From: Azadirachta indica
Taxonomy: Eukaryota; Streptophyta; Magnoliopsida; Sapindales; Meliaceae
Assembly: GCA_022749755.1 (NCBI GenBank)
Contig: CM040445.1
Location: 10,065,182-10,129,181, forward strand
DNA: 64,000 nt
Reading direction: 5' to 3'
Shown piece after piece: positions 7,496 to 63,430 of this stretch. How positions within the stretch are numbered: position 1 is the first letter of the stretch; each line of letters starts with the position of its first letter. Under the pieces are notes generated by a model. It searched no databases. It had not been told where the DNA came from and saw nothing but the letters and a program-made list of their open reading frames with translations. The translations under genes and the position numbers were made by a program.

Positions 7496-8226
7496 ATGAT
7501 GGAAGCAAATACAAGTAAAATGGTTAATTTGAATGGTGCAAATTATCATTTATGGAAGGGAAAGATGGAAGATCTTTTATATGTGAAAGATTATTATTTA
7601 CCCGTGTTTGAGAAACAGAAATCCGATAATAAAACAGATGCACAATGGAAGTTGTTTCATCGTCAGGTGTATAAGTATATCAGACAATAGGTAGATGACA
7701 ATGTTTTGAATCACATTAGTGGAGAGACAAATGCAAGTTCTTTGTGGAATAAACTTAAAGAATTATATGCCAGAAAAATTGGGAACAACAAACTACTTTT
7801 GGTAAAGCAGATAATGAATTTGAAATATCGGGATGGAAAACCTATGACAGATCACTTAAATATATTTCAGGGAATCATTAATCAGTTGGCTGGAATGAAC
7901 ATCAAATTTGAAAATGCAGTACAAGAGTTATGGCTTTTAGGCATATTATCGGACTCATGGGAGACATTTAGAATGTCATTATCTAACTCAGTTTTTGATG
8001 GTATTATCACCATGGAATTGGCTAAGAATAGTGTTCTGAATGAAGAGGATAGAAGAAAGTCACAGGATTCTTCACAGTCAGAGATATCTTAGTCACAAAA
8101 AAGAAGGGGAGGAGTAAGAGTAGAGGTCCGAAGAACAGAGATAAAAGTAAAAGTAAGACCAACAAGTTTGCCAATGTTGAATGCTATCATTGTGGTTTGA
8201 AGGGGCACATAAAGAAGTATTGTTGA
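7496..8226 (+). pseudogene. gag: Copia element A gag
   Basis: Encodes the particle protein of element A. The frame opens at an ATG 34 bp after the primer site (MEANTSKMVNLNGANYHLW) and is of the UBN2/Retrotran_gag type. A TAG at 7,688-7,690 and another at 8,090-8,092 interrupt the same frame. A frameshift follows before a CCHC zinc knuckle (CX2CX4HX4C) read from 8,182 to 8,223, immediately followed by TGA and TAG. The knuckle shows that the nucleic-acid binding end of gag was present. Not functional. Confidence 0.88.
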
Positions 8227-9960: not shown

Positions 9961-11470
9961 TGCCATGTAAGACGAGATGAAGTCATTGTATGAAAATCAC
10001 ACATTTGAGTTGGTAAAGTTACCTAAGGGTAAAAGGGCTTTAAAGAATAAATGGGTGTATAGAGTGAAACAGGAAGAACATATCTCGCAGCCACGATACA
10101 AAGCCAGATTAGTTGTCAAGGGATTTAGCCAAAGGAAAGGTGTTGACTTTGATGAAATCTTTTCTCTAGTTGTCAAGATGTCATCCATTCGTGTGGTATT
10201 GGGCATAGCGATTAGTCTTGACTTGGAGGTTGAGCAGATGGATGTAAAGACTGCTTTTCTACATGGAAACTTAGATAAAGAAATTTATATGGAGTAGCCA
10301 GAGGGTTTCATAATAAAAGAAAAAGAAGACTATGTATACAAGCTGAAGAAAAGCCTCTATGGCTTGAAACAGGCACTAAGATAGTGGTGTAAAAAGTTTG
10401 AATCAGTTCTGGGGGAGTAAGGCTATCGAAAAACTTCTTCTGACCATTGTATTTTTGTGCAGAAATTCTCTGATGATGATTTTATTATACTGTTACTTTA
10501 TGTTGATGACATATTGATTGTTGGTATAGATGCTTCTAGAGTTGACAGGTTAAAGAAGCAGTTAAGCAAATCCTTTACTATGAAGGATTTAGGGCCAGTA
10601 AAACAAATCCTTGGCATCCAAATTTATCGAGATAGAGCAGCTAAGAAATTGTGTATATCACAGGAGCATTACATTAAAAAGGTACTTGAAAGGTTTAATA
10701 TGAACAACGCTAAAATGGTTAGCACTCCTCTTGCTATACACTTTAAGTTAAGTATCAAGTAGTCCCCTATAATAGATAAAGAGAAAGAAGACATGGAAAG
10801 AGTTCCTTATACTTCAACAGTTGGAAACTTGATGTATGCGATGGTATGCACAAAACCAGATATAGCTCATGCAGTCGGTGTTGTTAGTAGATTTTTATCC
10901 AATCTAGGAAGAGAGCATTGGAATGCAGTGAAGTGGATTATGAGATATCTTCGAGGTACTTCCGATTTCAAACTCACATTTGAAAATGGAGAATCTGTGT
11001 TAGTTAGCTATACAGATTCAGATATGGCTGGAGATGTTGATACTCGAAAGTCTACTATGGGTTACTTGATGACACTTTCAGGTGGAGCTGTATCATGGCA
11101 ATGAAGGCTACAAATATATGTTGCACTTTCCACTATAGAGATAGAATTCATTGCAGCGACTGAAGCATGCAAAGAATTGTTGTGGATGAAGAAGTTCTTA
11201 CAGGAACTTGATTTCAAGCAACAACGATATGTGGTATTTTGTGATAATCCAAGCGCAATTCACTTAAGTAAGAATTCCTCTTTTTATGCAAAATCAAAAC
11301 ATATTGATATGAGATATCATTGGTTGAGAGATGCACTTAATGATAATATGTTTGAGCTTGAAAAGATTCACATAAATCACAATGCCTCTGATATGTTAAC
11401 CAAGAGTCTTCCAAAGAAAAAGTTTGAAGTTTGTTGTTCGATTGTTAGGTTGGCAAGTCCCTCCATATAG
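9961..11470 (+). pseudogene. pol: Copia element A reverse transcriptase and RNase H
   Basis: One frame runs from before 9,968 to 11,470 with no frameshift, broken only by stops at 9,968, 10,295, 10,382, 10,418, 10,760 and 11,102. Reverse transcriptase landmarks are KNKWVYRVK, YKARLVVKGFSQ, QMDVKTAFLHG, LYGLKQ and the catalytic YVDD box at 10,499-10,510. RNase H landmarks are YTDSDMAGD near 11,010, the cryptic ALSTIE-type segment near 11,124, and KSKHIDMRYHWLRD near 11,300. Most stops sit where a Gln codon is expected (for example before PEGF at 10,295), which fits C-to-T decay. Confidence 0.93.
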
Positions 11471-23499: not shown

Positions 23500-25010
23500 T
23501 ACATTATCATAATACTTTGACTCTACTTACTATAATCATATGATTGCTGATCCTACTTTCTTTTCTTTTAAATCTACTTCACCAAATTTACCTGTTATTC
23601 AGACTACAAATAGATCTAATATATCTGTTAGTCACCTAGATCAAATCAGTTTATCTCACCTCTCCTTACCTGACACTTTTTTTATCCTTCGTCTCACTTT
23701 TAATCTTTTATCTGTTGGTCAATTGTGTGATCTTGGTCTTCATGTTCTTTTTACCTCTTTTGGTTGTTATGTGCAAGATCCGAAGATGGGTTGGACACTT
23801 GGGACAACCCATAAAGTTGGACACCTATTCAAGCTTATTAGTCTTCATCTTCCATACATTTCTCATTCTATTCCTTAATCTATTGCTTTCACAACTTTAG
23901 TGTCTTCTTTGAGTTTTTGGCACACTCAACTTGGCCATATGCCACTTAGTCATCTTCGTTCACTAGTCTTTAGTGATATTTTGGGTACTATATCTAATGA
24001 CTAAGTTGATTGTATATCCTATCATTTAGCAAAACTTACTACTTTACCTTTTAATAATAGTGATTCTCTCTCATGCTTCTTTTAGCCTAATTCATTTTAA
24101 TATTTGGGGGCCTTCACCTAATGTTATAATGAGGGGTTTAAGGTATTTTGTCATTTTTATTGATGATTATTCTCGTTATACTTGAATATATCTTATGAAG
24201 CATAGGTCCGAGTTATTGAAAATCTACAGTACATTTGTCCAAATGATTCAAATATAATTCTCTCATTCTATTACAGTTTTGCATATTAATAATGCTATGG
24301 AATACAGGGATTCTAAGTTTCTACATCTTCTTTAAACCAATGGCACTCTTTGTCAATGATCCTGTCCAGACACATCCCAATAAATTGGTCGTGCTGAACG
24401 AAAATATAGGAATATTCTTGAAATAGTCTGTTCTTTTCTTATCTTAGCCTCTTGTCCAAAACGATTTCGGGGGAAGCAACTCTTACAGTTGTTTATACTA
24501 TCAATTGTATTCCTTTTCCACTTACCAATAATTAATCTCTATATGAATAGTTGTATAGGACTCTACCTAATTATAGTCTTCAAGTCTTTGGTTGTGTATG
24601 CTTTGTTTTTTTTCAGCCTTATGAATATACCAAATTAGAACCTAGGGCCTATTTATTTTGCTTTCTTAGCTATGGCATTAAACACAAAGGTTACACGTGT
24701 TGGGATCCAATGTCTCATAGACTTCATATATTAGATCATGTCATTTTTTGGGAACATAAAATATTCTCCTCTCTTTCAAATTTTCGTTCTAAGTCTCATC
24801 TCACTCCTTTTTTTACTAATGATGCTATAGAATTATTTCTTGATGAAACTAATGCAGGTACCACAAATGAGCTCTTAACAGATATATCCACTGCATCACC
24901 GTTTTCTCCTGAGTAGATGACCTTACCTTCTGGATCCACACTTGACATCACCACTTCGTGCACTAATATTCCTCCTCCACCTCGTCAATCAAATCGAGTA
25001 TGAACACTTC
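23500..25010 (+). pseudogene. pol: Copia element C protease remnant and integrase
   Basis: A GAG-pre-integrase motif (FWHTQLGHMPLSHL) lies near 23,917. The integrase core retains FIDDYSRYT near 24,160 and the third catalytic residue in AERKYR near 24,397. Both catalytic aspartates are Asn: HFNIWGPS at 24,093-24,116 (AAT at 24,099) and INNAMEY (AAT at 24,288). Downstream, 24,551-24,916 is an open stretch matching the copia integrase C-terminal region (LQVFGCVCFV, EPRAYLFCFLSYG). No convincing DSG protease motif was found. Confidence 0.82.
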
Positions 25011-36830: not shown

Positions 36831-36839
36831 AAGGTCATT
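36831..36839 (+). repeat. 9-bp target duplication, left copy
   Basis: AAGGTCATT, matched with one mismatch by AAAGTCATT at 38,890-38,898. A 9-bp duplication is the Mutator-superfamily signature. Confidence 0.7.
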
Positions 36840-38889
36840 GGGAAATTTCCCAAATAAGCTTAATTTTTTTGAAGTTTATGTAAATAATCTCTTAAAAAAA
36901 TTTTACTAACCTAATCTAAAATATATTTTTTGAACTAAATTATCATCAATAGCCTACTTCAATTTATTTTTTACAAGTCTATTTTTTTATTTTTTCTTAT
37001 TAGATTAAATTTTTAAATTCTCCCAAATTCAAACTCTTCTCTTTTAAAACTATTTCTCTTTTCAAAATCACTTTTCTTAATAATAGTGGAGACAACGGCG
37101 GCATATTTTTTATGGTGAAGTTTTGTCACCGATATTAAGAGATTTTTTTGTTATATAGGTATTTTTTATATGTGAATTAATTGATTAAAGAGAAATTTCT
37201 CTTCTCAAATGTGGATTCAATGTTAATTATATATTAAAGAGTATTGATTTAAGTTTAAATTATATTGATCGATTGTTATATAAATGCAAAAATATGGATA
37301 ATTTGAGAATAAGAAGGTATTGTGCGATTTTAAATCATGGGCCTTTTACCTGAAAAATGAATTTCGGGTGAGGCCAAAATTTGCCTTATTACAAAAATGG
37401 ATTTCGGGTAAGGCCAAAATTTGCCTCACCCAAAAACTACTTTACGAATAAGGCTAAATTTGGTCTTATCCAAAAATAGTTTTCGGATAAGGCATATTTT
37501 GACCTTACCCAAAAATCACTTTTTGGGTAAGGCTAAATTTTCAGGTAAAACTAAATTTGGCCTTACCCAAAAAGTAATTTTCAAGCAAGGCATAATTTTT
37601 CTTTACCCAAAAACTATTTTTCGGGGTAACGTATAATTTAGCTTTACCCAAAAAATCATTTTCGGTTAAAGTATATTTTGGTTTTACCCAAAAATCACTT
37701 TTTGAGTAAAGTCAAATTTTTGGATAAGGTTAAATTTGGCTTGGCCTTATTCAAAAAGTGGTCTTTGGGTAAAGCATAATTTTATCTTACCCAAAAGCCA
37801 TTTTTTGAGTAAAACCAAATTTTTAGGTAAGGTAAAATTTTGCCCTACTCAAAAACTATTTTTTGCGTAAGGCTAAATTTGACCTTATCCAAAAAATGGT
37901 TTTCGAGTAAAGTATATTTTGGTTTTACCCAAAAGTCACTTTTTGAGTAAGGCCAAATTTAGTTTTATCCCATATGTCTTACTCGAAAATTATTTTTTGG
38001 GTAAAAGCAAATTTAACTTTATCAAAAAGTGATTTTTTGGTAGGTAAAATTTTGTTTTATCCAAAAATTTGACTTTACTCAAAAATTGATTTTCGGATAA
38101 AGTCAAATTTAGCCTTACCCAAGATTTGATTTTACTCTAAAAAGTAGTTTTTGAGTAACATCAAAATATGGCTTACCCGAAAATGATTTTTGGGTAAGGT
38201 CAAATTTAAGTTTACTCGAAAAGTAATTTTTGGGTAAGGCAAAATTGTGTTTTAGGTAACAAAGTTGGCTTTATCCGAAAAGTAGTTTTTGGATAAGGCT
38301 AATTTTGACCTTACCCGAAATCTATTTTTCTGGTAAGGAAAATTTTGACCTTATCAAAATTTATTTTCCAAGTAAAAAACTAATAATTCAAAGTCACACA
38401 ACACCTTATTATTCTCAAATCATCTATGTTTTTTGCATTTATATAACAACCAATCAACGTAATTTAAATTTAAATTAATACTCTTTACTACATAATCAAC
38501 ATTAAATCTACATTTGATAAGAGAAATTTCTCTTTAATGAATTAATTCACACATAAAATATATACTTATATAACAAAAAAATAACTTAATATTGATGATC
38601 ATGATTTCACTATAAAAAATATGCTATAATCGTCTCCACTGTTAGTAAAAAAAAGTAATTTTGAGGAGAGAAATAATTTTGAAAGAGGAGAATTTGAATT
38701 TAGAAGGGTTTAAAAATTTAAAATAATAAAGAAAAGTAAAAAGGTAGACTTTTAAAAAATAAATTGAAGTGAGTTATTGAAAATAATTTAATTCAAAAAT
38801 ATATTTTAGTTTAAGTTGGTAAAAAAGTTTTTATAAAAGATTATTTACATAAACTTCAAAATAATTAAAGTTATTTTAAAAAACTTTCT
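36840..38889. mobile_element. Mutator-like foldback element with palindromic core array
   Basis: A 2,050-bp element. The left arm (36,840 to about 37,350) and right arm (about 38,372-38,889) are inverted copies over roughly 510 bp. Matching blocks, left arm versus reverse complement of right arm, include GAAGTTTATGTAAATAATCT, AGTGGAGACxA near 37,087, AGAGAAATTTCTCTT near 37,190, and TTGTTATATAAATGCAAAAA near 37,274. The outer end GGGAAATTTCCCAAATA is a MULE-type end, and a 9-bp near-exact duplication flanks it. The ~1-kb centre is a palindromic minisatellite. No transposase is present, so it must have been moved in trans. Confidence 0.85.
37360..38365. repeat. Palindromic minisatellite, about 22 units
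   Basis: Each unit contains a half-arm of the type TTTTTGGGTAAGGCCAAA followed by its own reverse complement (TTTGGCCTTACCCAAAAA), so the consensus unit is its own inverse. The CTTACCCAAAAA anchor recurs at about 37,384, 37,423, 37,464, 37,503, 37,561, 37,601, 37,641, 37,681, 37,745, 37,785, 37,843, 37,882, 37,922, 37,977, 38,016, 38,055, 38,112, 38,171, 38,209, 38,267, 38,308 and 38,348. Spacing is mostly 39-41 bp or 55-64 bp, the longer step adding about half a palindrome. The frame at 37,421-37,636 is only this repeat translated. Confidence 0.92.
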
Positions 38890-38898
38890 AAAGTCATT
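38890..38898 (+). repeat. 9-bp target duplication, right copy
   Basis: AAAGTCATT, one mismatch from the left copy. Confidence 0.7.
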
Positions 38899-42766: not shown

Positions 42767-43700
42767 ATGACCAGTGTTCAAAGAAACTCTACTGCCTCTT
42801 CCGGCTCTTCCAGTACTTTTGAAATCATTCAAACCAACCTTATTGTTTCTTCCACATTTGTACAAGCTGAATATTATTCTCAAAATTTAGCCCTTTCTCT
42901 TATAGGTACAAAACTAAACAGGCACAACTATCTCGAATGGGTCAATCCAAAAAATTGGCAATTAACGACAGAGGAAAAATCAGGCACTTGACTCGAGAAA
43001 TTTCCAAACCTACTGTTAGTGATCCAAAGCTGGAAAAATGGCAGTCCAAAAATTCTATTGTTATTGGTTGGCTCATCAATTCTATGGAATCTGCGATTGG
43101 AAATCTCACCTATTTCTTCATATTGCTCGAGATGTCTAGGAGGCTATTCAAGATCTTTATTCAAAACTAGAGAATTCATCTCAAATTTTTGAGTTGAAAA
43201 CTTGTCTTTGTAAATCTAATCAAAATGATTGTGATGTTACCACTTATTACAATGAATTGATAACATTATGGTAGGAACTTGATCAGTGTTATAATGATAT
43301 TTAGGAGAATCCGAATGACTATGCTCACCACAAGAAGAAAGAGGAAAATGATAAACTTTACATGATTTTAGTCGGTCTTAATTGAAATTTGGATGAGGTC
43401 TGAGGTTATATTCTTCGAAGGAAGCCACTGCCTACTCTTAGGGAAGTATTTTCTGAGATTAGATGTGAGGAGTCAAGGAAAAAAATCATGCTACACAACA
43501 CTAAACTTAGTTTCAACATTGAATCTGAGAGTTCCGCTCTTATGCCAAAAGGTGGTAATTTTGACAATGATGTGCGTAAGAAGTTATAGTTTGATCATTA
43601 CAAAAAACCATGGCATACAAGAGAGACATGTTGAAAGCTCCATGATAAACCAACAAATTGGAAGCCAAAATCCAAACGTGATGGTTGTGCCTACCAAGTC
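42767..43700 (+). pseudogene. gag: Copia element E gag
   Basis: The N-terminal half reads MTSVQRNSTASSGSSS then LIGTKLNRHNYLEW. After a frameshift near 42,940 come IRHLTREISKPTVSDPKLEKW and SIVIGWLINSMESAIG, the pattern of the Retrotran_gag_3 type. Further on (43,140-43,480) stops sit at positions expected to be Gln, Trp or Arg. The zinc knuckle near 43,592-43,635 is broken: the first two cysteines read Phe and Tyr (FDHYKKPWHTRETC). Confidence 0.85.
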
Positions 43701-43733
43701 ACTACTGAGGAGACGCAAGAGCCTTTTCCTAAC

Positions 43734-44930
43734 TTGGATGCAATTCCTTTTACCAAGGAGCAATTAGAGCACTTATATAAATTATTTCAATCTCCAAAAT
43801 TGTACATAACTCCATCTTATTCTTTGGTTCAAAAGGGTAACTCTCTTGTCACTACGTTTTTTGGTGTTAGTCCTAATTCTACTCATTCTTGGATAATTGA
43901 TTCTGGCGCCATTGAACATATGACTAGTTGCCCTAAAATATTTTCCTCCTATAGTCCTTGTGTAGGCAATAAAAAGGTTAAAACTGTAGATGGTTTACTC
44001 TCTATAATTATTGGGATTGGAAACTGTCAAACTCACTTCTTTGATGACCTTTCACGATGTACTTCATGTTCCCAAATTGTCTTGCAATCTACTGTCCATC
44101 AGCAAAATTACTTCTGATCATCAATGTTAAGCTAACTTTTACTCTTCTTATTGTGAGTTCTAAGATTTGACCCAAGGGGGGATAATTGGCAGTGCTTAGG
44201 AAAATGATGGCCTTTATTATTTTGATGATGGACTTGACTTGAGTGAACAATGTCAAAGTACTTGCGTATATTTTATTTCTATTTCCAAATATAATGATAT
44301 TATATTAAGGCATTTTATGTTAGGCCATCCTAGCTTTCAGTATTTAAAATACTTGTTTCTAAATTTATTTATGAATAAAAATCCATTTTCTTCTCAATGT
44401 GAAATTTCTCAATTTACTAAACATCATCATGCATCTGTTTCTCCCAACCTCATAAATCAACCACACTATTTACTTTGATCCATCGTGATATCTAGGGTAC
44501 ATGTAGAATATCTATATATTCTAGTAAAAAATGGTTTGTGACCTTTATTGATGATCACACAAGATTAAGTTGGGTTTCTTTGATGAAGAAAAAAATCTGA
44601 AGTGGAAACAATTTTCAAAAATTTTTACATCATAATACAAACATAATTTCCAAAAAATATTCAAATATTGCGAAGTGATAATGGTCGAGAATATTTCAAA
44701 AATATTTTAGGCCAATTTTTTCTTGACAAAGGAATTGTCCATCAAAGCTCTTGCATTGACATTCCGCAACAAAATGGTTGGAAACTTTCAAGAAAATTTA
44801 GCGCATAATCCTTAATCTTCGTACTTTGAAGTCATTCATTTGAGGTAAGTTGTTATGCATTTACCTTATAACCTTCGTGGCTATAAAAGCTCTAACTAAG
44901 AACACTCTATATACTGTACAAGTAGGTAGA
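43734..44930 (+). pseudogene. pol: Copia element E protease and partial integrase
   Basis: The protease active site is intact in sequence (WIIDSGAIEHM, Asp codon 43,899-43,901), within an open frame from 43,734 to 44,117. The GAG-pre-integrase motif (LRHFMLGHPSFQYLKYLF) lies near 44,305. The integrase keeps the second Asp in RSDNGREYF (44,677-44,679), but the region of the third catalytic residue is deleted after PQQNG near 44,775. The remaining fragment ends near 44,930. Confidence 0.82.
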
Positions 44931-54096: not shown

Positions 54097-54720
54097 ATAT
54101 ATAATTATCTAAAAGCCTCAGTATATAAGAATTTAACATCAATATAAAAGAAATTATAATTAATCAATAATATACAAATTGCACAAATGAAACATTATTA
54201 AGCGCATATAACTATATAAATTGAATAATCTATCAGTAATTATCAAAAAAAACTCGTTAGACATAATTGTATAGAAGAATTTAACACTACTATAAAATTT
54301 TTTTCAATTAGTCAATAATATAAAAGAAAATAAATTGCACAAATTAAACATTAATAATACAATTATATTAAATAATATAAAGGCTATATATAATTACACA
54401 AAAACTCATTAGAGAAAATTGTATATAAGAATTTAACACCAATATAAAAGAAATTATAATTAATCAATAATATACAAATTAAACTTTAATAAGTACAAAT
54501 ATAATTGTATAAATTAAATAATATAACGATTATATATATAATTATCACAACAAACTCATTAGACATAATTGTATATAAGAATTTAATAGCAATATAAAAG
54601 AAATTTTAATTAGCCAAATAATATGAAAGAAAATAAATTGTACAAATTAAACATTAATAAGTGCAAATATAATTATTCAATTTTTATATAATTATCAAAA
54701 AAAATTAACACCAATATTTA
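54097..54720 (+). repeat. ~150-bp AT-rich satellite array, about four units
   Basis: The AAGAATTTAA anchor recurs at 54,127, 54,275, 54,427 and 54,577 (spacing 148, 152, 150). Each unit carries TTAGACATAATTGTAT, AAAAGAAATTATAATTA, AAATTGCACAAATTAAACA and AATATAATTGTATAAATT. The array continues to the left of the Tat element at 41,460-41,579. Confidence 0.88.
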
Positions 54721-60110: not shown

Positions 60111-60199
60111 AGGATTTACAGCCGAAGAATATTCACAGATAAAGGCTATTCTTCGTGATGATAAAAATCAGTCTTATACAAAGGTTGCAGGATTGCAAA

Positions 60200-61800
60200 A
60201 CCACATTTGATTCCATACAATTCTCTCTTTTCTATTCCAAAACGTTGGATTATTAACAATGGTGCTGTTGATCATATCTTTTCTTTGTCCAATTTGTCTC
60301 ATAAATTCATACCTTCCATGACGTCATTTGTTGAACTTCCTAATAGATCTCAGTCTCTGAAACAATACATAGGTTCTATTAAATTAAATCCAAACTTGCC
60401 TCTGAAGGATTTACTTTTTGTTTCTTCATTCAAAGTTAATTTGTTGTTAGTTAAGGAACTAACGAGAGATTTGAAACGTACAATTCTTTTTCATCCAAAT
60501 TTTTGTGTCTCGCAAGAATCGACAACGATGAAGATGATTGGTCTGGGAAGCAACATAATGGTCTATACAGCTTGTTTAAAGAAGTCGAATCACCTGCCAT
60601 TTCTTGTGGCCAAAACTTTACTGTCCATAATGGTGTCTGGCACCAAAGACTAGACCATCCTTCTACAGTACCCTCTCTTATTTTGTCAAAAACAATTCCA
60701 ACATTTTTTTTTAATTTCAGTCTTCATTGTGATGTTTGTCCATTAGCTAAACAAAGTCATCTCCCTTTTCCATAAAGGTCTATTTCTACTGTTAAACCAC
60801 TTGAGTTGATTCATTGTGATATTCGGGGCCCTCATCGCATTGCATCTCATTCTGGGTGCCTGTAATTTTTTTACTATGTTGATGATTTTCCACGTTTTAC
60901 TTGGATATGTCTCTTGCAATTTAACTATGAAACACAAGAACTATTGGAATCTACTTTTTTTCTATGTTTGCACCCAATTTCTTTCTTATATCAAAAAATT
61001 AGGAGTTCATAACGGTAGTCAACTTCTCTTGATGAACAATATTTTTAAAGATCTTGGCATTATCTTTTATCATTCCTCTTTCAACTCCTAATAAGATGGA
61101 GTTGTGAAGTGAAAACATAGACATCTTTTAAATGTAGGAAGAACACTACGGTTTCAAGCTTATTTTACACTAATTTTTTGGGGAGAAAGCATCCTTACAC
61201 CTGCATATATTATTAATAGCATGCCTGCACATGTTTTATCCAAGAAAGCACCATTTGAAATCTTCTATAAAAGCTAACCTAAGTATGATCAATTTTTTGT
61301 TTCTGGATTTTTTTCCATGCTGCAAATCCTAAACCATTCCAAAAATTTGAACCTAGGGCACAAAAATGCAAATTTGTTGGTTATCCTCTTGGTCAAAAAG
61401 CCTGTCGGGTTTATGATTTGGAAAGAATTTTTTTTCTCAAGATTGGAAGTTGTATTCCATTAGCATATATTTCCCTTCTCTCACTGGACACAAGAAGACC
61501 CGTTTGACCATTTTGATTAACACTTCCAATGCCTAATTCAGAAACATTCTTTCAATCTCCACAATGCTCAAATGCACTTACATATGAACCAGAATATACT
61601 ACACCAAAAAGACTCACTTCACCATCATCTCCCATATTGGATACACTTATGAATTCACTTCATCCGCAAATTCCCTCAAAGTACAAGATGTTGCCAAAGC
61701 ACCTTTGCCTTTTGATTCTATCATTCAATCTCTTTCACCTGTTGCTCCTTCTATGGTTCGAGGGGCTCGTACCAAATACCCCGACGTTTGATTAGTGGAT
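60200..61800 (+). pseudogene. pol: Copia element D protease and integrase
   Basis: The protease region reads WIINNGAVDHI at 60,246-60,278. The catalytic Asp is Asn (AAC at 60,255), so the enzyme would be dead even without frameshifts. GAG-pre-integrase follows as VWHQRLDHPSTVP near 60,638 with CDVCPLAKQ near 60,728. The integrase core begins ELIHCDIRGPH near 60,803 and is badly shifted after 60,860. An FxPxxQKFEPRAQKCKFVGYP-like integrase C-terminal block remains near 61,335-61,395. Confidence 0.83.
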
Positions 61801-61949: not shown

Positions 61950-63430
61950 TTGCCTAGGCTGAGATTGATCCAAAATGGAGAGAGGCGATGCAATCTGAAA
62001 TCTTAGCACTTGAGTAGCAAAATACTTGGAGTCTAACAATTCTACCTTCGGGTAAGAAAATTATCAGTAGCATATGGGTTTATGCAACCAAATATAACTC
62101 AGATTGTTCTGTTGAGCCCTACAAAGCATGCCTTGTTGCCAAAGGCTACACAAAACATGAAGGGTTAGACTATGACGAGACTTTTGCTCTTGTTGCCAAA
62201 CTTGTCACCGCTTGTTGTTTATTGGCCATTGCTATAGTTCTTTATTAGTCCTACATTGATTTGACGTACAAAATGTTTTTTACATAATGATCTTGAGGAA
62301 GAAGTCTACATGATTTCACCTCCAAAGTTTTGTGACGGGGGGAGAAATTGTTATGTTGACTAATTAAATTGTTATATAGTTCAAAACAAGCACCTCGGAA
62401 TTCAATCTAAAAATTCTGCAAAGCCATTCAAGATGCCAGGTATAGACAGTCGAAGCAAATTATTCTTTACTTGCGTATGTGGACAATCTTTTACAGCAGT
62501 TTTGATTTATATGGATGATATGGTCATTACAAAGAATAATAAGATTGCCATTGGTGATCTTAAAGATCTTGGTAAAATTGAAATATTTTCTTGGTTTAGA
62601 GGTGGCACGTTCTAAGCAAGGTATTTTTATTTCTAAAAGAAAATATATCTTGGATATACTTAATGATGCAGGTTTACTTGGTGCACGACATGTTGATTTT
62701 CCTATGGAAACGATCAAAAACTTAATATATCTGAAGGTGAGTTGTTGAAAGATCCTCTATGATACAGAAGACTTGTTGGGCAGCTTATATGTCTTACAGT
62801 TACTCGACCCAATATTACTTATGCAGTTAATATTCTCAGCCAGTCTATGTATGAACCAAAGAAAGCCTCATTTTGAAGCAGCAAGGCTTATTCATAGATA
62901 CGTAAAGGGCACTTTAGGACAAGGGTTGTTATTGTCTTATGTAAGCAGATTACATTTGAAAAAGGTTTGTAAAGCTGCTTAGGTTGGATGTCCTACACTA
63001 GAAGGTCAGTTACTGGTTATTGTATATTTCTTGGTGGCTCGTCACTTATATCTTAGAAATAAAATAATAAAAAAAAAAGGTACAAAATTGCTGCCCGTTC
63101 ATCTGCTGAACCAGAATGCAGGTCTATTGCAACCACCACATGTGAATTAACATGGTTGAGATACTTTCTTCAAGACTTGAAAGTTAATTATCCAGAAGCA
63201 GTAAAGTCGTACGTGACAACCAGGCAGCACTTACATATAGAAGCAAATCCAGTTTATCATGAGCGAACCAAGCATATCAAAATCGATTGTCATATAGTGC
63301 GAGAAAAAATACAATTAGGCTTAATCACTGCTGCCAATATGCCTTTAACTCTTAAAGTGGCTGATATCTTTACAAAGCCTTTGTGTACTGTTTTCACTCA
63401 CATTTGTGCAAGTTGGGCATTCTAGATATC
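61950..63430 (+). pseudogene. pol: Copia element D reverse transcriptase and RNase H
   Basis: Reverse transcriptase starts near 61,950 (AEIDPKWREAMQSEI), continues with YKACLVAKGYTKHEGLDYDE near 62,120, and holds the catalytic box as YMDD at 62,508-62,519. Between these the frame is lost several times. RRLVGQLICLTV-like text near 62,764 and ITYAVN near 62,815 follow. RNase H ends the element: RYKIAARSSAEPECRS near 63,080, ELTWLRYFLQDL near 63,146, HERTKHIKIDCHIVR near 63,260, and DIFTKPL near 63,364. Confidence 0.87.

Follow-up and report, generated by a model that had tools for sequence, protein, structure and literature searches.

A foldback Mutator-like element of Azadirachta indica with a palindromic minisatellite core, and a likely transposase-bearing parent lineage in the same genome

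What is the repeat that lies at positions 36840–38889 of a 64,000-nucleotide stretch of the Azadirachta indica genome (hereafter the window), and how did it acquire its form? It consists of two long inverted arms on either side of an array of short half-sites (Table 1), and it is a non-autonomous foldback-type Mutator-like element (MULE), decayed and gene-less. The origin of foldback transposons is unsettled. In this case a likely parent, built as arm, array and transposase, and a derivative, built as arm, array and arm, share one genome, and because each lineage has many copies there, the question of origin becomes directly testable. The foldback family also carries a mutation footprint compatible with silencing.

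Table 1. Parts and borders of the foldback element, in window coordinates.
Feature	Position	Strand	Remark
Left target duplication copy AAGGTCATT	36831..36839	.	8/9 identical to right copy
Left arm (long terminal inverted repeat), 506 bp	36840..37345	+	83.0% to right-arm reverse complement
Palindromic minisatellite core, 1.04 kb, 49 half-sites of 18-bp type TTTTTGGGTAAGGCCAAA	37346..38385	.	
Right arm (long terminal inverted repeat), 504 bp	38386..38889	-	
Right target duplication copy AAAGTCATT	38890..38898	.	8/9 identical to left copy

When the left arm was compared with the minus strand of the window by BLAST, the right arm was recovered over 495 bp (E 2e-142), and the next-best minus-strand match in the 64 kb had an E value of 0.002. 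An earlier note on this DNA, made from the letters alone, had described inverted arms of about 510 bp within the same outer limits and a near-exact 9-bp target duplication. Both descriptions hold: the duplication has one mismatch here, and duplications in the family peak at this length. No open reading frame of at least 120 amino acids overlaps the element. A reading as an RNA family was rejected, as Rfam gave no match at gathering score within the window.

The left arm was used to search the 281-Mb genome, and the best 40 of 262 candidates were scored; these represent 28 elements including the window copy. All 27 relatives carry a second arm in inverted orientation, which is full-length in 26 and a 105-bp remnant in L028. 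Together with L066 and L067, which came from a search with the core, the two-armed copies other than the window element number at least 29, segmental duplicates included. Elements span 1264–2096 bp, with arms of about 505 bp that are 81–90% identical within elements. Target duplications were examined in 25 elements, allowing one base of slack at either border. L028 was left out, as were L025 and L027 as segmental duplicates; L010 and L026, likewise segmental duplicates, were retained. Exact 9-bp duplications were detected in 7 of the 25, compared with 0.7% of left-right pairs drawn from different elements, and duplications with at most one mismatch in 18 of 25, compared with 3.0% of such cross pairs. 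No element had an exact 10-bp duplication. With up to three mismatches allowed, the genome contains the terminus pattern GRAAATTTTCTAAAATAACCTTAAT at 66 + 67 places, a count that takes in the ends of transposase elements too, compared with 1 + 2 for a reversed control.

These features place the family among the MULEs: it has the 9-bp target duplication, long terminal inverted repeats (TIRs), and ends in common with an element that encodes a transposase with MURA/MULE domains. As in FB-like foldback elements, the inverted repeats take up almost the whole element, internal tandem repeats included. MITEs are also gene-less and TIR-bearing but are typically under ~800 bp, so that copies of 1264–2096 bp are too long for that class. 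The window copy does not look like a Pack-MULE, as half-sites fill its interior and no open reading frame of the above length overlaps it, and its long TIRs separate it from VANDAL elements, in which TIRs are degenerate or absent.

Could the arms and the core be independent repeats that adjoin by chance? The earlier note had named this outcome, along with an absence of other copies having matching ends and a 9-bp duplication, as evidence against its reading. A search with the core alone, in which the best 40 of 135 candidates were scored, returned the same loci as the arm search plus some others; these places beyond the arm search's best 40 of 262 count in favour of independence. However, when five core-only places were examined, arm sequence lay beside the array in all of them (two arms in L066, two in L067, one in L069, one in L070 and part of one in L068), and the array was present in 28 of 28 arm-found elements (27 by the half-site profile and L028 by the core search). 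In L070 and L068, the array is flanked by the arm, or part of it, on one side and by coding-like sequence on the other. Core-only places outside these five include C9:9697k, C5:11547k, C4:8158k and C10:15396k, and four further core-search places on C2 have a MURA match downstream. For the places examined, independence was rejected, and we regard it as extremely improbable overall. The arms and the core are a single unit, they are kept together in other copies, and that unit has moved.

Comparison of the arms gives some indication of the history of the family. Mean arm identity within one element (0.853, 23 elements) is close to that between elements (0.846), and left and right arms could not be distinguished as sequence types. 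Hence no arm homogenisation was seen, and nothing has preserved the pairing of arms. As judged from these sequence comparisons, the identities are compatible with a family that spread over roughly one period and then decayed.

Within the window core, half-sites span positions 37361 to 38361, the first starting at 37361 and the last at 38341. Their orientation mostly alternates, with starts 15 and 25 bp apart in turn, which gives a 40-bp palindromic period. Extra half-sites are scattered among them, each starting 18 bp beyond a half-site of like orientation, and produce sporadic 58-bp steps. A half-site profile trained on 27 cores, the window core among them, found 51 matches in that core and 17 elsewhere in the window at threshold 6, and 47 compared with 4 at threshold 10; letter-shuffled versions of all 27 cores yielded one match in total. 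The same grammar applies throughout the 27 cores, where 346 of 374 '+-' junctions fall at 15 bp, 291 of 348 '-+' junctions at 25 bp, and 94 of 109 same-orientation junctions at 18 bp ('++' 47/58, '--' 47/51). Copies differ in size, with 11 to 53 half-sites per core.

Individual units are far less regular than their consensus. In the window copy, 19 '+-' pairs have the standard spacing, and identity between their halves averages 65% (56–78%). Across 298 pairs in 23 cores, the two halves of one unit are 71.6% identical, compared with 72.8% for random half-sites of the same element. Since unit halves are no more alike than random half-sites, there is no sign of selection or repair acting across single small hairpins. 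Near-perfect palindromy is a property of the consensus unit and not of single units. Recent changes could be followed in sets of segmental duplicates (L009/L010, 98.9% identical; L022/L026, 99.6%; and L023/L025/L027). Core gaps of at least 8 bp number one each in L009/L010 and L022/L026, both exactly 40 bp, and none in L023/L025/L027. What stands of the earlier reading is a mobile foldback MULE with a self-complementary minisatellite core. Its near-perfect units give way to a near-perfect consensus, its regular alternation of ~40- and ~58-bp spacing to a mainly 40-bp period, and its growth by half-palindrome steps is not supported as the recent mode, as both recent core changes of this size are whole 40-bp units.

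The same note had proposed that the element is inverted at two scales and would fold into a very long hairpin, and the predicted folds agree with this. The RNA fold of the whole element is predicted at -904.8 kcal/mol, compared with -363 to -369 for four shuffles, and 435 of its 875 base pairs run from arm to arm. For the core alone, the predicted energy is -444.5 kcal/mol, compared with -206.9 (sd 6.9) for 12 shuffles.

The core-search locus L070 and its neighbour L071 (C2:22913000-22918400) contain in order a terminus, an arm, the palindromic array, and a broken transposase gene running inward. One transposase piece of this C2 element scored above the Pfam cut-off for PF10551 (MULE); below the cut-off were PF10551 in a second piece, PF03108 (DBD_Tnp_Mut) and SWIM. 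We searched the genome with the C2 arm plus array, scored the best 40 of 213 candidates, and compared these places with the 150 + 150 matches listed from two transposase searches. A MULE-domain match lies on the same strand, 1.6–3.5 kb downstream, at 26 of the best 40 places, and a list chosen by hand picked out the same 26. Among the matches listed, none within 8 kb of the 40 places lies upstream or on the opposite strand, and 14 places have no match within 8 kb at all. For random places, a MULE-domain match within 4 kb downstream occurred in 0.2% of 4000 draws. The 17 copies of these 5' ends at C2 0.5–2.8 Mb and 21.7–23.5 Mb are 88–100% identical, and one copy lies on C5 (same best 40 of 213); this crowding on C2 suggests local segmental amplification. 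On the 3' side of the C2 transposase gene, L071:1103-1194 (C2:22914102-22914193) is a second, small palindrome-rich stretch with GGGTACC and TTTTTCGAGTACTCGAAAA, which differs from the main array in sequence and resembles it in style.

A second transposase element, L072 (C3:17900400-17909000), has two tandem arms at its 5' end, the first partial, followed by a reverse-strand array at 1004–1740 and a MURA transposase (PF10551, E 1.3e-15; SWIM, E 4.9e-7). At its 3' end are two tandem arm tips of ~160 bp, so that arm sequence is duplicated in tandem at both ends (C3:17900449-17900767 and 17908036-17908835). Its borders are poly-A, which makes its target duplication ambiguous. The C2 and C3 elements are the two that were read at length, and both are broken. 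Downstream of MURA and on the opposite strand, L072 contains pieces of an Ulp1-type protease (PF02902, E 3.1e-8) at L072:2118-2681 (C3:17902517-17903080); as these are in separate frames, this copy looks broken. A Pfam scan of 12 coding pieces brought out only MURA-type and Ulp1 families, with three pieces unmatched. A search with a piece of the C3 transposase recovered five relatives, the best-scoring of which, from Diospyros lotus, is 43% identical over 97%. For a host gene of the same genome, the FRS6-type L073, close named matches come from Citrus, Pistacia, Mangifera and Acer, in keeping with Sapindales. A MULE domain 13 kb from the C10 array was set aside, as it is distinct from the coding sequence beside that array.

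The two ends of the transposase elements differ. Six 5' ends, which have arm and array by construction since they were chosen from arm-plus-array matches, cover 470–488 arm positions at 71–74% identity and continue into an array of 11–33 half-sites; L072 has one additional isolated half-site 554 bp away. At all seven 3' ends the match is confined to the outer 152–174 arm positions (83–89% identity), and the array is absent, with 0–2 stray half-sites. Six of these seven are terminus-pattern matches picked by eye 5–9 kb downstream of a MURA match, so their assignment to that MURA gene is by inference. The foldback elements are almost certainly a non-autonomous MULE family with a likely parent lineage in the same genome.

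How might a foldback form have arisen from such a parent? We consider it highly likely that both foldback ends are of the parent's 5' type: both arms are homologous along their length to the parent 5' arm, including the inner part that is missing from parent 3' ends. It is probable, with somewhat less assurance, that the foldback MULE as a whole is two such ends, each an arm with its array, joined head to head without any unique sequence in between. The opening order of half-sites +-+-++- occurs in four of six parent arrays (L072 being counted after one stray half-site was dropped) and, among the 46 foldback core ends, at 12 left and 7 right ones, 19 in total. Both ends have it in 2 of 23 cores, and the window copy has it at neither. 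Within foldback cores, extra '++' half-sites are distributed 35:7 in favour of the left half and extra '--' half-sites 31:8 in favour of the right half. The outermost half-sites (ranks 0–3) are 0.78–0.83 identical to their mirror partners compared with 0.67–0.74 to other half-sites, whereas past rank 7 the likeness of mirror partners hardly exceeds that of controls. Exact mirror symmetry was observed in 2 of 23 cores, one of which (L019) is plain alternation; L022, L032, L009 and L017, at 0.38–0.46, are far from it.

Non-autonomous DNA transposons usually originate by internal deletion, and the foldback form could likewise descend from a parent MULE that had arm and array at both ends and lost its genes. 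The outer ~150 bp common to both parent ends fits such a history, as do the tandem copies of the outer arm part at the 3' end of the C3 element. However, neither the array nor the inner ~330 bp of the arm is present at any of the seven 3' ends, and we judge an ordinary deletion to be unlikely. Over the outer 150 bp, the foldback consensus is 85–89% identical to MURA 3' ends compared with 81–85% to 5' ends, so the foldback tips themselves possibly came from either side of the parent.

Under the head-to-head arrangement, DNA synthesis may have folded back on a hairpin-forming array unit and thereby added a second, inverted copy of the 5' end, giving the founder. None of the copies shows fold-back duplication under way, and the founder event is one that we infer; this particular route is a tentative suggestion, and recombination between two inverted parents would give the same product. 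The founder would then have been moved in trans by transposase of the parent lineage, acting through the terminal ~150 bp common to both parent ends.

The footprint of decay was examined in the duplicate pairs L009/L010, L022/L026 and L023/L025 by comparing the element with its flanks. Within the element, 5290 aligned bases contained 50 differences, and the 5662 aligned bases of flank contained 15 (p 4e-6). Scored per G+C site, transitions were about nine times commoner inside, at 36/1342 compared with 6/1963 outside (Fisher p 1.9e-9); the p-values treat sites as independent, and the changes are unpolarised, their direction being assumed. Transversions numbered 14 inside and 9 outside (p 0.30). 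The inside and outside counts of transitions were 27/1159 and 4/1264 at CHH, 6/118 and 0/322 at CG, and 3/65 and 2/377 at CHG. Differences inside were spread along the element, and 5 of the 15 outside lie in one TA run. A C-aware arm consensus gave C>T or G>A at 0.20–0.36 per context compared with 0.014 for T>C; consensus calling inflates this contrast, and the argument for decay therefore rests on the duplicate pairs. Differences among other copies are mostly transitions as well, and conversion by other copies could contribute to the excess.

Judged by its sequence contexts, the transition excess fits the footprint of cytosine methylation in all contexts, confined to the element. In plants, CHH methylation is placed on such elements by RNA-directed methylation, and long inverted MULE derivatives can start silencing, as Muk killer does in maize. 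The hairpin and the dispersed copies may have made the family a target of this pathway, after which its cytosines would have decayed to thymines; RNA-directed methylation is described for VANDAL MULEs (PMC10398659). From the predicted fold energy and the decay footprint, silencing by hairpin-derived RNA is plausible. Another reading of the same two observations, the very stable predicted fold and the transition excess, is that the host has selected the hairpin locus as a source of small RNA, either MIR-like or as a silencing trigger. We consider this very improbable: Rfam gave no gathering-score match in the window, palindrome halves show no excess pairing, and arm identity of 0.853 within compared with 0.846 between elements leaves arm pairing unpreserved.

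What might the array do in the parent? One proposal is that it provides subterminal binding sites for a protein, either the transposase or a regulator encoded by the element, and such a putative role may be why the array lies between the terminus and the transposase gene. By analogy with the arrays bound by VANC (PMC5735166) and with the sites of Galileo (PMC4079207), we offer this as a possibility of rather low probability. A stronger contender, though still somewhat short of an even chance, is that slippage produced the array as a passive minisatellite that lacks any binding role, and that movement depends on the ends alone. This alternative opposes the binding-site step only and is compatible with the rest of our preferred explanation. 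It agrees with the lack of excess similarity between palindrome partners, with a decay pattern that fits unconstrained methylated DNA, and with the variation from 11 to 53 half-sites among copies. It is harder to reconcile with the same 15/25 grammar being kept in parent and derivative lineages whose arms are 15–34% different, and with the finding that 0 of 28 arm-found elements lack an array. We also consider, as a speculation with few odds in its favour, that a palindromic minisatellite at the promoter-side end of a MULE has two jobs, serving as a dense set of putative inverted half-sites for a protein encoded by the element and forming hairpins whose fold-back copying converts the 5' end of an autonomous element into a self-complementary, gene-less derivative. 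If true, dual-role arrays of this kind would offer ordinary MULEs a general path to becoming foldback transposons and hairpin loci that trigger silencing.

Related arrangements are known from other systems. FARE1 of Arabidopsis (as cited in PMC4486113 and PMC3169594) and MuTAnT of Medicago (PMC4486113) also have modular long inverted repeats, a strong hairpin and, as described there, a mudrA-bearing relative in the genome. Unlike in the account of PMC4486113, the inner module here is a minisatellite with a palindromic consensus that matches the 5' array of the transposase element, and the target duplications, judged by eye, show no (TA)n preference. The Tm1 Mutator/Foldback elements of root-knot nematodes resemble this family in their 9-bp duplications, in inverted repeats of composite build with short tandem units in varying number, and in having both transposase-bearing and gene-less classes (PMC3169594); the units described for Tm1 are 13–15-bp tandem repeats, whereas those studied here switch orientation in turn and occupy the middle of the element. 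The Drosophila foldback elements Tetris and Galileo likewise have inverted repeats with inner tandem repeats, and those of Galileo are said to hold extra transposase-binding sites (PMC4079207). However, Tetris repeats are ~220-bp tandem units, the hosts of both are animals (PMC4079207), and the Galileo transposase is given as P-element-type (PMC3169594), unlike the MURA-type enzyme here.

Among plant MULEs, those with tandem TIRs (PMC3310237) resemble the C3 element in having duplicated arm sequence at both ends, but in that text 'palindrom', 'minisatellite' and 'foldback' occur 0 times, and no palindromic array was seen there. The VANDAL elements of Arabidopsis are a candidate for a system that works alike, as they are MULEs with fast-changing, non-coding arrays of short motifs, including upstream of VANA, and these arrays are reported to be bound by an element-encoded protein and targeted by RNA-directed DNA methylation (PMC5735166, PMC10398659). 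According to the same sources, VANDALs have degenerate TIRs and motifs in one orientation, whereas this family has long TIRs and alternating half-sites; no gene like VANC (PMC5735166) stood out among the 12 pieces of the general Pfam scan here. MULEs carrying ULP1 (KI-MULE, and those of melon and grapevine; PMC2528002) are similar to the C3 parent in its Ulp1-type protease pieces, but KI-MULE is described there as non-TIR, in contrast to the TIRs at both ends and the array at one end of the C3 parent. Tandem units inside foldback arms are thus already known from Tm1 (PMC3169594) and Tetris (PMC4079207). In the literature searched, which took in few subscription papers, we found neither a plant MULE with a core of palindromic units nor a foldback core traced to an array beside a transposase gene. 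Set against that literature, these two features, a unit that is itself palindromic in consensus and a core traceable to such an array, appear to be new.

The neighbourhood of the element in the window seems to be rich in transposons. Open frames at window positions 7691-8092, 11105-11470, 23513-24916, 43372-44117, 60165-60653 and 63063-63425 resemble, by eye, parts of Copia-type retrotransposon proteins. A separate tandem array, with about four copies of a ~150-bp unit, occupies a very AT-rich stretch at 54121-54704.
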